Shown: piece after piece, positions 3,280 to 21,171 of the stretch | Numbering within the stretch: the stretch's first letter is position 1 | Layout of the letters: each line of letters starts with the position of its first letter | Position numbers and translations under genes: made by a program | Origin: a virus | Direction: 5' to 3' (one strand) | Virus record (IMG/VR): IMGVR_UViG_3300028569_000199 | Coordinates: 1-21,171 of that record | Length of the DNA stretch: 21,171 bases | Notes under the pieces: model-generated | What the model was told of the DNA's origin: nothing | The model's database searches: none | What the model saw: the letters and a program-made list of their open reading frames with translations, nothing else

Positions 3280-4131
3280 ATGTATATTTCTTGTGGTACT
3301 AATGATGATATTGATGATGATAAGGATTATCTTATTACTCTAACACCTACACCTACACCTACGATAATATTCATCCCAACAAGAACACCTACTCCTACTC
3401 CTACTTCTACACCCACAAGAACACCGACACCTACACCTACTCCTACAGAGACCGAAACACCTACACCTACTCCTACAGGCACACCTACAGGAACACCGAC
3501 ACCTACACCTACTCCTACAGAGACCGAAACACCTACACCTACTCCTACAGGCACACCTACAGGAACACCGACTAATACTCCTACATCTACTCCTACAAGA
3601 ACTCCTACAGGAACACCGACTAATACTCCTACATCTACTCCTACAAGAACTCCTACCAATACTCCTACATCAACACCATCACCGACACCGATTCCACCAG
3701 TAGACGGAATTAATGTTCAACTAATACAATTACCATCTAGTACATATCCATCAAATTGTACATTACCTAATATAACAAGTGTATTAGGAAGATATGTTTT
3801 TAGTAAAACATTTTTATGGCAAGATATTCCTAATTGTTTTACGACATGGACAGAATATGGCATACCAAGAACACCAAGTGTAATCATATATTCAAATTGC
3901 GTAATCACTATTAATGTTACATTTGATATATATCGAAATATTTCAAGGCCTGGTGGTCCGAATTGTATTCCTTGTTGTACAGATAATTCTTCTAATACTC
4001 ATATAGGAACCTCAACAGCGGGGATTACTAGAAATGCTAATGGTACAATTACAACTAATTTTCCGACTATTCCAATCAGTAATAATATCACACCAGGTGG
4101 TTGGTCGAATGGTATTGTTCTAACATATTAG
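3280..4131 (+). CDS. Mucin-like Thr/Pro-repeat protein with beta-rich C-terminal domain
   Basis: The 283-residue product has three parts: a short acidic N-terminus (DDIDDDKD near 9-16), a Thr/Pro-alternating stalk at about 21-140, and a C-terminal region at 141-283 that is rich in Thr, Asn, Ile and Cys (including CIPCC at 229-233) and looks like a globular beta domain. The stalk contains exact repeats: a 24-residue unit twice (48-71, 72-95) and a 16-residue unit twice (96-111, 112-127, last residue differing). Such extended stalks in phages usually link or display a terminal binding domain on the virion. No signal peptide or TM segment is visible. The adjacent divergent glycosyltransferases make O-glycosylation of the Thr residues a reasonable inference. 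The same repeat vocabulary reappears in the gene at 20733. Confidence 0.85.
3421..3660 (+). repeat. Tandem DNA repeats coding the Thr/Pro stalk (72 bp x2, 48 bp x2)
   Basis: Two 72-bp units (3421-3492 and 3493-3564) are followed by two 48-bp units (3565-3612 and 3613-3660). All are in frame and made of ACN-CCN codons, so this strand is almost free of G except in the ACAGAGACCGAAACA-type islands. Copies are near-identical at DNA as well as protein level, which points to recent slippage or unequal exchange. In-frame length variation is expected. Confidence 0.9.
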
Positions 4132-10944: not shown

Positions 10945-11012
10945 ATAAATAATTATCTTTTTTATAAGTTATATTATAATAAATAATTATCTTTTTTATA
11001 AGTTATATTATA
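10945..11012. repeat. Perfect 34-bp tandem duplication in a divergent promoter region
   Basis: Bases 10945-10978 and 10979-11012 are identical. The 81-bp gap between the divergent genes ending at 10942 and starting at 11024 is almost filled by this duplication. TATAAATA, the exact T4 late consensus, spans 10944-10951 at copy 1; in copy 2 the first base is A instead of T. It may duplicate promoter elements for both directions. Confidence 0.85.
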
Positions 11013-11023: not shown

Positions 11024-11404
11024 ATGAAAATGTCTAAATTCGATACAGTATACCAAAAATCATATAAATTATTCTTAAAAGAAGAAGCTCCGATGCCTAC
11101 AGGTGCTATGACCGATACTAATCAGATTAAACAAGGAGCACCCGCACCCCCCGAAGCGGCAGAAAATCCTACAGACGATCAAATAAATCAATCTGAGTTA
11201 CCTGATCCCAATGATGTGATAGGAGTAAAAACAGATTTATTAAAAATGTTTCAAGATTTTTTTAATGCTGACCAACAAAGACAAGAAGAATTTAAAAGAA
11301 CTCTTTCTACTAAATCCATAGATGCTAATAATTCTGAACGGTTGATTTCACAAATGAAAGAATTTATAGCATCAGGAGAAAAACCAAAACAATCTTCTAT
11401 TTGA
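11024..11404 (+). CDS. Acidic tagged protein, possible head-core or internal protein
   Basis: This is a 126-residue protein (124 from Met3). The N-terminus SKFDTVYQKSYKLFLKEEAP fits the tag pattern, with L18-K19-E20 as a possible cleavage site. The rest is low-complexity, Pro/Ala/Glu/Gln-rich (GAPAPPEAAENPTDDQ), then a helix (TDLLKMFQDFFNADQQRQEEF), resembling small disordered head-core or scaffold-like proteins. No enzyme motif is present and the family is not recognised. Two ATG codons lie 6 bp apart. It is preceded by the 34-bp tandem repeat and TATAAGTAA, consistent with late expression. Confidence 0.7.
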   Translation: MKMSKFDTVYQKSYKLFLKEEAPMPTGAMTDTNQIKQGAPAPPEAAENPTDDQINQSELPDPNDVIGVKTDLLKMFQDFFNADQQRQEEFKRTLSTKSIDANNSERLISQMKEFIASGEKPKQSSI

Positions 11405-11429
11405 CTTTTTTAGAAAATTGGTTAATAAT
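11401..11429 (+). promoter_or_regulatory. Candidate sigma-70 promoter for the 11443 unit
   Basis: TTGACT (11401-11406), 17 bp, AATAAT (11424-11429), each 5/6 to consensus. The following AGGA at 11432-11435 lies 7 bp before the ATG at 11443, one of the few Shine-Dalgarno-like sites in the window. Confidence 0.4.
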
Positions 11430-12386: not shown

Positions 12387-12410
12387 AAAGATAAATAGTT
12401 TATAAATATC

Positions 12411-13205
12411 ATGAAAAAAACAAAATTCGACATTCTTTTTGAAAAAGTTGTAATAGTCAATGAAGGAAGAAAGAAAAAAGTATACCCTAAATATACTTTA
12501 AATATGGATAAATTATCAGAAGATTTAAAAAACTTAAAAAGTCCATTTAAAAATTTCTATTTACAAGCATTGCAACATGTACAATCCACCGGAAATTTAC
12601 CAGAGACTAAACCTGAATGGGAAAGTACTATAAATATCGGTTTAATGAATCAAGGGTTAGGACCAGATGAAAGAAAATTGTTATTTAAAAGATTTTGGCA
12701 TGTGTTAAGCACACCAGATCATTCTTATTTTGTCGAATTTGATGAAAATTCTACCAGCGAAGAAGAACCCGCAAAATCAATATCGAGCGTAGAAGAACAT
12801 ATCTATAATTATATAATTGAATCGGATGATGAATCATCAACCAAAGAAGAAATCAAATCTTTTATTTCTAAATATGGTCACGAAGAAGAAGAAGTTGATA
12901 AAATTATAGACAAAATGGTTAAGGATGGTCAATTGGGAGAACAAGATGGCAAATTGGTAGCAATAAAAGATCCAGCTTTAGATGATTTAGAAGAACCTGA
13001 AACCTTTGATAATAATATCAAGGATGATGATTTGGAAGGATTACGAACCGACATAGAATCAGGAGAAGGCGATGACTACAATACTGATAGTTCAATATCA
13101 TCTGAAATCGATCCTGAACTTGCAAAAGATTTAGGTATAGATTCTAACGATCCTTGGGGTGAAAAGGGAATGCTAGATGACAATTACGATGACTATAACG
13201 ATTAA
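12411..13205 (+). CDS. Acidic tagged protein with winged-helix-like segment
   Basis: The N-terminus MKKTKFDILFEKVVIVNEG resembles the other tags, with V16-N17-E18 as a possible cleavage site. The 264-residue protein then has a basic region (GRKKKVYPKY), a helical domain to about 115 and a segment at about 126-170 (VEEHIYNYIIESDDESSTKEE, then EEVDKIIDKMVKDGQL) that reads like a winged-helix fold. The C-terminal third is highly acidic and probably disordered. The family is not recognised. TATAAATA ends 2 bp before the ATG, too close to be a T4-type promoter for this start. Confidence 0.7.
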   Translation: MKKTKFDILFEKVVIVNEGRKKKVYPKYTLNMDKLSEDLKNLKSPFKNFYLQALQHVQSTGNLPETKPEWESTINIGLMNQGLGPDERKLLFKRFWHVLSTPDHSYFVEFDENSTSEEEPAKSISSVEEHIYNYIIESDDESSTKEEIKSFISKYGHEEEEVDKIIDKMVKDGQLGEQDGKLVAIKDPALDDLEEPETFDNNIKDDDLEGLRTDIESGEGDDYNTDSSISSEIDPELAKDLGIDSNDPWGEKGMLDDNYDDYND

Positions 13206-13208
13206 TTG

Positions 13209-13237
13209 TTGACATTTTTATAGCTTAGTGTCATAAT
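13209..13237 (+). promoter_or_regulatory. Sigma-70-type promoter at the primase start
   Basis: TTGACA (13209-13214), 17 bp, CATAAT (13232-13237), then 6 bp to the ATG at 13244. The expected +1, seven bases after the -10, is the A of the ATG, so the promoter-derived primase mRNA would be leaderless. The helicase promoter at 17673 has the same geometry. Confidence 0.65.
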
Positions 13238-13255
13238 ACCGACATGACACTAAGC
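13223..13255. promoter_or_regulatory. 12-bp perfect inverted repeat covering the primase start codon
   Basis: GCTTAGTGTCAT (13223-13234), a 9-nt spacer, and ATGACACTAAGC (13244-13255) form a perfect inverted repeat. The right arm begins exactly with the primase ATG and the left arm overlaps the -10. It could be a repressor operator, or in read-through RNA from 12411 a hairpin that hides the start codon. No T run follows on either strand, so it is not an intrinsic terminator. Confidence 0.75.
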
Positions 13256-14194
13256 GAAAATTATATATTAAACGCTTTTTATACCTATTCGGGCGATCCA
13301 TCGTTTAATAAATATGATGGAAATTATAATGCATCGTGTCCTATTTGCAGAGAAGGAAATTCTTGGGGTAGGAAAAAAAGATTGTTCTATTACCCTAAAA
13401 CCCAATCTTTATTTTGTTTTAATTGTCAAAAGTCTTGGTCGGCTATAAATTGGTTATCTAATATAACCGGACTTTCTTACGATGAAATTTTTTTAGAAAA
13501 TAAAAATGAGGATTTTTCTAAAGAAATTAAAAATATTGGTATAAAAAAAGAGTATATAATACCATCACTGCCTTACGATTCTATTAATATTTTAGATCAT
13601 ACTCAACAGAAATATTATAAAAACAATAGATATTTTAATAAAGCTGTTGATTATATAAAAGCTAGAAAAATTGATACTGCAATAAATCGATCTAAAACTT
13701 ATTATATAAGTTTGAACGATAAGATTCACAGGAATAGATTGATTATTCCTTTTTATGACACATCCAATAAAATAATATTTTATCAAACTAGATCATTGGA
13801 TGGATCAGAACCAAGATATTTGGGAAAAATTGGTCACGATAAAACAATTTTTGGTATAGAAAATATCAATCCTAATATTGATTATATTTTTCTATTCGAA
13901 GGTCCGATAGATTCTATGTTTGTTAAAAACGGTGTTGCTGTTTGCGGTTTAACTTTAACAAAAACACAAAAGGAACAACTTAACGCTTTTCCGTTTCATA
14001 TAAAAATATGGGTAATCGATAATATAGCAGTTACAAAGGATGAGGAGACTAAGCAAAAGGTACTAAAACTTTTAAATGAATCTGAAAAAGTATTCAGATG
14101 GCCTACTACAAAATACAAAGATTTTAATGATATAGCTATAGATAAAAATTTAAATGAAATTGATTATAAATTTATTCTGAAGAATTTGTACTAA
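13244..14194 (+). CDS. 61: DNA primase, gp61-like (zinc ribbon plus Toprim)
   Basis: The 316-residue protein (T4 gp61 is about 342) has a CHC2/zinc-ribbon domain with SCPICREG (Cys32, Cys35) and LFCFNCQKSW (Cys58, Cys61). The catalytic core has HRNRLIIPF (162-170), a Toprim motif FLFEGPIDSMF (216-226, Glu219 and Asp223) and a second acidic strand KIWVIDN (254-260). It would make RNA primers for the lagging strand with the gp41-type helicase, which is not in this window. Its promoter predicts a leaderless mRNA. It overlaps the convergent gene at 14172 by 23 bp. Confidence 0.88.
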   Translation: MTLSENYILNAFYTYSGDPSFNKYDGNYNASCPICREGNSWGRKKRLFYYPKTQSLFCFNCQKSWSAINWLSNITGLSYDEIFLENKNEDFSKEIKNIGIKKEYIIPSLPYDSINILDHTQQKYYKNNRYFNKAVDYIKARKIDTAINRSKTYYISLNDKIHRNRLIIPFYDTSNKIIFYQTRSLDGSEPRYLGKIGHDKTIFGIENINPNIDYIFLFEGPIDSMFVKNGVAVCGLTLTKTQKEQLNAFPFHIKIWVIDNIAVTKDEETKQKVLKLLNESEKVFRWPTTKYKDFNDIAIDKNLNEIDYKFILKNLY

Positions 14195-20732: not shown

Positions 20733-21171
20733 ATGGCGCAAGAAATTTTAAACAATAGAGAATCTTTATTTACAATAAGAACCAAAATAAATTCAAATTT
20801 TCAAGAATTGTTTGAAAATATTTCTGATATAATGGACGAAATACAGCAAATTAAAAATAATATTAATAATTTGGTAACCCCTACACCAACACCTACTTCG
20901 ACTCCTACACCAACACCTACTTCGACTCCTACTTCGACTCCTACTGAAACACCTACTTCGACTCCTACTGAAACACCTACACCGACACCAACAGAGACCG
21001 AAACACCTACACCAACACCAACTTGTACTCCTACAGAGACTGAAACACCTACACCTACTCCTACTCCTACTCCTACAGAGACCGAAACACCTACTCCTAC
21101 TCCTACAGAGACCGAAACACCTACTCCAACTCCTACAGAGACCGAAACACCTACTCCTACTCCTACAGAGA
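20733..21171 (+). CDS. Thr/Pro-repeat fibre-like virion protein, 3' end outside the window
   Basis: The frame is open from the ATG at 20733 to the window end (146 residues seen). Residues 1-23 contain [16 protein letters not shown], a pattern common at the N-terminus of phage tail or neck fibre proteins. Residues 24-47 look like a short coiled coil ([20 protein letters not shown]). From Thr49 the sequence is Thr/Pro repeat with Ser, Glu and one Cys inserted, and the C-terminal domain lies beyond the window. Placement after gp15-like and TIG-like genes suggests a neck or tail appendage. The stalk repeats closely match those at 3421-3660. Confidence 0.8.
20877..21171 (+). repeat. Thr/Pro-coding tandem repeat, ending in a 30-bp unit
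   Basis: The tract runs to the window edge. From 21075 a 30-bp unit coding [10 protein letters not shown] occurs three times (21075-21104, 21105-21134, 21135-21164) and a fourth begins at 21165. Copies are nearly identical; only one base differs in the second. ACAGAGACCGAAACACCTAC-type strings are shared with the repeat at 3421. Confidence 0.85.

Follow-up and report, generated by a model that had tools for sequence, protein, structure and literature searches.

The cI mRNA of phage lambda, transcribed from PRM, is leaderless, and to our knowledge no hairpin covers the start codon in that system. The literature also names cI as leaderless (PMC9031893). In phage T4, start-sequestering hairpins silence the early read-through mRNA of genes with late promoters, namely e, soc, 49 and the gene for I-TevI (PMC3014915). 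Here we compare with these systems a phage primase gene whose promoter and start codon are overlaid by a predicted hairpin.

The window, the whole stretch of 21,171 nucleotides that we analysed, is an IMG/VR fragment (21 kb) of a T4-like phage with a G+C content of 27.6%. Its genes include those for a gp61-like primase, a UvsW-like helicase, an SbcD/gp47-like nuclease, a gp55-like late sigma factor and a tail sheath stabiliser. The primase (13244..14194, + strand, 316 aa) matches PHROG 47 with an E-value of 4e-36 and is 27–29% identical to gp61 of cultured phages; a Pfam CHC2 zinc-finger match is weak and below the cut-off, and the zinc-binding cysteines C32, C35, C58 and C61 are invariant. 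Similarity to phage primases and these cysteines satisfy membership in the gp61 primases. The start codon at 13244 is secure, because there is no in-frame start upstream of it and because the N-terminus, MTLSENYILNAF, aligns with the MxIPExYIxxKF of homologues. A bacterial genome search yielded only one phage-like contig, from a Chitinophagaceae MAG, which is too little for naming a host. Elsewhere in the window, a 34-nt AT-rich unit is perfectly duplicated in tandem between divergent genes (10945–11012), and the regions 3280–4131, which encodes a long PT-rich repeat protein, and 20858–21166 are related by a 12-nt repeat.

The primase start is preceded by TTGACA-N17-CATAAT-N6-ATG (13209–13246, + strand), in which the −35 element TTGACA occupies 13209..13214, the −10 element CATAAT 13232..13237 and the ATG 13244–13246. 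Overlaid on it is a perfect 12-bp inverted repeat (+ strand), whose left arm GCTTAGTGTCAT (13223..13234) overlaps the −10 element, whose 9-nt loop AATACCGAC lies at 13235..13243, and whose right arm ATGACACTAAGC (13244..13255) begins at the ATG and comprises the start codon and first primase codons; the CAT of CATAAT pairs with the AUG of the primase. The loop is supported by the repeat and the predicted fold, and the arms additionally by both-sided changes in relatives. In sigma70 promoters, a −10 element ending 6 nt before the AUG places the expected transcript start on the AUG. The primase meets this criterion for a leaderless gene (−10 about 6 nt before the start codon), so its mRNA is predicted to be leaderless, with a transcript start at or near 13244 that is inferred without a mapped 5′ end. 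The left arm would then lie outside the leaderless transcript.

The window contains 132 promoter-like sites where 136 are expected, so a single promoter match is not beyond chance, and the match at the primase carries weight because its position is conserved in relatives, including a TTG-type −35 element near −35 from the start. No other short-loop inverted repeat in the window has an arm that reaches 10 bp with at least 3 G/C. When the window was simulated 60 times with a second-order Markov model, arms of at least 12 bp appeared 0.37 times per simulation, and never with at least 5 G/C. Elsewhere in the 21-kb record the palindrome does not recur, and the idea that it is a repeated element was rejected. 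No RNA family of Rfam 15 matched the window at the gathering score.

According to the predicted folds, the 51-nt region of the read-through RNA has a free energy of −17.2 kcal/mol (z = −6.1) with its AUG paired, whereas the structure of RNA beginning at the AUG is unremarkable (z = +0.5). A preliminary description of this locus had given the same layout of promoter and repeat, whose coordinates we confirm exactly, and had supposed that a transcript starting at the ATG would lack the hairpin, with which these folds agree.

We consider it probable that the primase is expressed as a leaderless mRNA from a promoter fused to its start codon, and that read-through RNA is locked by the start hairpin. 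A sigma70-type promoter fused to the start codon would yield an mRNA that begins at, or a few bases from, the AUG and is free to initiate. The −10 region would serve twice, as DNA to start the leaderless mRNA and as RNA to cover the start codon. In RNA that reads through from upstream, it would block internal initiation by pairing with the start codon and first codons, and the primase would be made only from its own promoter. The sequence evidence supports the promoter–start fusion, the specific and conserved pairing, and the exclusion of the left arm from the predicted leaderless RNA; the transcript start, the translation block and the early and late classes are inferences. If the host cannot initiate internally without a Shine-Dalgarno (SD) sequence, the hairpin would be partly redundant.

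We collected primase relatives, mostly from uncultured contigs, by three IMG/VR scans and one bacterial-genome scan, and retained 103 that differ from one another around the start. Their alignment on the start codon has T at −12, A at −11, T at −7 and TTG around −35. A promoter of the TTG/TANNNT type, located 4–10 nt before an ATG or GTG and scoring at least 8/12, is found at 75 of the 103 primases, compared with 2.3% of 15,197 other ATG/GTG codons in the same loci; at a threshold of 9/12, the comparison is 62/103 against 1.05% of control codons. At the lower threshold, the promoter stands exactly 6 nt from the start in 46/103. About a quarter of the relatives have no recognisable promoter at the primase start, and in one of the window's two closest relatives (L033), possibly also in the other (L034), the −10 element stands 9 nt before the ATG, which would leave a leader of about 3 nt. 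The prediction of a leaderless primase mRNA extends across the family, for which no 5′ end has been mapped.

A survey of 627 predicted genes on six contigs gave a similar picture phage-wide. The promoter-to-start distance peaks at 6–7 nt, SD-like 4-mers at gene starts are not above a control position (7% vs 6%), and the T4 late motif TATAAATA (at least 7/8) peaks 5–6 nt before starts. The genes were called by longest open reading frame and some starts will be wrong, an error that should weaken rather than create these signals. As a control of the method, the T4-like phage RB32 showed an SD in 50% of genes versus 3%, and no promoter-distance peak. Two further genes of the window, 9172 and 17708, have strong promoters shortly before the start, at 8 nt (TTGAAA-16-TATAAT) and 6 nt (TTGACA-17-TATATT), respectively; both are kept in the two closest relatives, although the promoter of the helicase gene 17708 is weaker in one.

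We quantified pairing across the start by a cross-start energy, defined as the minimum free energy of positions −35 to +25 minus the energies of its two halves; this measure was chosen because start-codon accessibility alone discriminated weakly, the unpaired probability being below 0.3 in 30% of all gene starts and in 49 of the 103 primases. The mean cross-start energy is −6.6 kcal/mol for primases and −2.5 kcal/mol for other gene starts (p = 4e-23). Because composition could mislead, upstream halves were swapped among primases: native pairs averaged −6.61 kcal/mol, compared with −3.84 ± 0.20 kcal/mol for permuted ones, a difference of about 14 sd. With one representative per 55% identity (n = 30), the difference is still 6.9 sd and is reached in 0/5000 permutations; an artefact of relatedness is rejected, since the signal persists among representatives sharing less than 55% protein identity. 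Substituting coding DNA at +27, +60 or +120, or reversing the upstream half, abolished the signal (z from 0.2 to −1.5); at ATG/GTG positions drawn at random from the same loci, z ranged from +0.5 to −2.5. By these shifted, reversed and random-ATG controls we also reject an artefact of base content shared by upstream and coding DNA.

The signal is largely specific to the primase and is weak or absent at other genes: the swap test gave z = −13.4 for the primase ingroup, −4.5 for the outgroup, −1.8 for other early leaderless genes, −0.7 for late leaderless genes and +0.6 for other starts. Native pairing thus exceeds swapped pairing, is lost in the controls and is largely confined to the primase; therefore, the DNA before the primase start appears to have been selected for pairing with the same phage's first codons. 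The helicase 17708, taken as a second test family, yielded only four loci, which is too few.

Confinement to a replication gene could also point to an RNA operator, through which the primase itself or a RegA- or gp43-like protein would repress primase translation, as T4 gp32, gp43 and RegA repress replication genes translationally (PMC3014915). Such a protein would have no conserved loop or arm sequence to recognise, and the predicted leaderless mRNA would lack the stem; we regard this explanation as very improbable.

The hairpin itself persists while its sequence turns over. Both closest relatives keep the stem, with 17 bp in L033 and 11–12 bp in L034, and within the window's clade three of the 12 pairs carry changes on both sides and no pair a change on one side alone; in slid controls, the paired share falls from 92% to 21–39%. 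The sister L040 has a 13-pair stem that includes G-U pairs. Other lineages have different arms in the same architecture, with stems of 12–15 bp in L126–L128 and of 9–10 bp in L123, L080, L047 and L076. Stems of at least 9 bp occur in 10/103 primases where 0.83 are expected, and this label requires at least six gains or losses on the tree; counts of perfect stems overlook G-U stems such as that of L040. The both-sided changes in L126–L129 amount to one pair, too small a count to weigh alone, and a strong hairpin is missing in about half of the primase relatives. Among the strongest hairpins, the left arm is placed upstream of the predicted transcript start or at it, and the right arm covers the start codon or follows directly behind it. 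With its left arm outside the leaderless transcript, the hairpin would therefore form only in RNA begun upstream.

A chance origin would explain the locus as a promoter-like match in AT-rich sequence, where many exist, together with a coincidental palindrome, 12-bp arms being found occasionally. It accounts neither for the both-sided changes nor for the strength of the family-wide pairing signal; conservation, including that among the most divergent representatives, and the controls lead us to reject it, and we leave it practically no weight.

The palindrome could alternatively act as DNA, with a dimeric phage or host repressor binding across the −10 element and +1 and turning the primase promoter off. 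A perfect dyad over these positions is the classic placement of an operator, and the arms are similar within the window's clade. Between lineages, however, arm sequence, loop length (4–20 nt) and the centre of the dyad (about −6.5 to +4 from the start) all vary, and an operator's requirement for conserved half-site sequence and spacing is not met. L040 uses G-U pairs, the palindrome is not repeated in the record, and the family-wide signal was measured as an RNA pairing energy and vanishes in the controls. The preliminary description had left a repressor operator open beside a transcript-dependent switch. The comparative data disfavour the operator, which we now find unlikely, and strengthen the switch, as promoter–start fusion is family-wide and pairing is kept despite sequence turnover; absence of the palindrome from related phages, which would have counted against the switch, is not what the relatives show.

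A third possibility is that the hairpin acts on read-through RNA without a direct effect on initiation, by terminating it, offering a site for RNase processing or stabilising the 3′ end of the upstream transcript. It does lie just behind the stop codon of the upstream gene, and a T-rich run follows the hairpin in L126–L129. The stem of the window, like those of L033, L034 and L047, has no T-run behind it, the terminator scan made no call at the primase hairpin, and across lineages the pairing has its centre at the start codon and first codons. The combination of a G+C-rich stem and a T-run that defines an intrinsic terminator is not met in the window. We judge this explanation to have only a small chance of being right; termination is plausible for L126–L129 only. 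In these four (L126, L127, L128 and L129), TTTTCTTTT or TTTTATTTT comes after the start hairpin, which could also terminate read-through RNA in this lineage.

The source of read-through RNA for a start-locking hairpin would be the upstream gene (12411..13205, + strand), which is co-directional, encodes 264 aa of unknown function and ends 38 nt before the primase. A co-directional gene precedes the primase in 92 of the 94 loci with enough flank, and it commonly ends 30–45 nt before the primase, so that the gap is little more than a promoter. The commonest neighbour family, with 33 loci including gene 12411, has a conserved upstream late-type promoter motif (GATAAATA at 12390..12397, + strand, in the window): in 18 of the 33 relatives, ATAAATA stands no more than 45 nt from the start of the neighbour, against a background of 1.6% per 45-nt window, and others have near variants. 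A second late-type motif, TATAAATA (12401..12408, + strand), ends 2 nt before the neighbour's ATG and is conserved in the two closest relatives; its function is doubtful, because this distance is shorter than the phage-wide peak of 5–6 nt. The protein of gene 12411 and the unknown proteins 11024 and 796 (+ strand) and 14564 and 10942 (− strand starts) have in common an N-terminal pattern like FDxLxEx(n)LxEG, which recalls T4 capsid-targeting peptides with LxE prohead-protease sites; its carriers may be internal head proteins.

Hairpins are strongest at primases behind the commonest neighbour family, averaging −8.9 kcal/mol, and average −6.4, −5.9 and −3.7 kcal/mol behind the next three neighbour classes. 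Hairpin strength is only marginally associated with the neighbour's ATAAATA motif itself (p = 0.05), an association inflated by related phages, and late read-through into the primase is for this reason a reasoned inference and not a result. With a neighbour carrying late-type motifs, the lock would stop translation of an early replication gene on late transcripts. Read-through from an upstream sigma70-type promoter (e.g. 11401–11429) would be silenced equally.

The locus thus resembles T4 e, soc, 49 and I-TevI in two respects: read-through RNA would form a hairpin over the initiation site that is kept in relatives, and a promoter inside the left arm would make RNA without the hairpin. Sequestration of the initiation site in read-through RNA, the first requirement for a gene-e-type system, is met by the predicted fold and the both-sided changes; the second, a stem-region promoter yielding RNA without the 5′ arm, is met by sequence only. 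The third, a late promoter TATAAATA with a sequestered SD, is not met, as the primase has the promoter TTGACA/CATAAT and no SD. Unlike the T4 genes, the primase is a replication gene with a sigma70-type promoter and is predicted to be leaderless; its neighbour looks late, and the timing would be reversed, in that an early gene would be silent on read-through RNA by the logic of gene e. As with lambda cI, a phage mRNA is predicted to begin at the AUG from its own promoter, but leaderless starts seem frequent phage-wide in the primase-relative contigs.

Among cultured phages, Pelagibacter phage HTVC008M and cyanophages S-ShM2, S-PM2 and P-RSM6 likewise have TTGAC(A/T)-N17-TANNNT directly upstream of the primase; unlike in the window, the −10 element is 11 nt (HTVC008M) or 23–27 nt (cyanophages) from the start, giving a short leader. 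No comparable primase promoter was found in four enteric-type or Aeromonas T4-like phages (RB32, R1-RT, an Acinetobacter phage and Aeromonas phage 25). In HTVC008M (KC465899; L204–L206), about ten genes, several of them structural, carry the late-type motif TATAAATA (at least 7/8) at a distance of exactly 5 nt upstream of the ATG. Leaderless late mRNAs are therefore predicted for this cultured phage, which otherwise relies on SD sites.

We hold with moderate confidence a broader proposal, that a wide, uncultured T4-like clade has largely given up SD leaders and fused sigma70-type and late promoters to its starts, and that its primase has a fast-evolving RNA lock, rebuilt in each lineage from the −10 region and first codons, that makes translation promoter-dependent. 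The literature that was searched on leaderless mRNA in T4-like phages does not describe this architecture, which is not proof that no description exists. The T4 read-through switch acts on SD genes with late promoters; here it would extend to a replication gene predicted to be leaderless, across a large group of uncultured phages, with strong apparent selection on upstream/coding complementarity despite sequence turnover. The same AUG is predicted to be used only as a 5′ end, and the locus can test how leaderless and internal initiation are distinguished. The promoter-to-start distance rule may also improve the calling of gene starts and promoters in AT-rich phages without SD sites.

Start-codon hairpins were also observed at two other genes. 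In the phage of L033, a 368-aa gene with a DUF7487 match (L163:15274-16377; contig position 35274) has an 11-bp start-codon hairpin, TATGAATATAT...ATATATTCATA, that overlaps a late-like TATGAATA; it resembles the start hairpins of T4 homing endonucleases, the enzyme class being a guess. In L190, a 270-aa gene on the minus strand (G007:C1:90377) has a perfect 12-bp start hairpin, GATAGAGGCATA...TATGCCTCTATC, which contains the late-type motif CATAAATA and is a possible T4 gene-e-like case.
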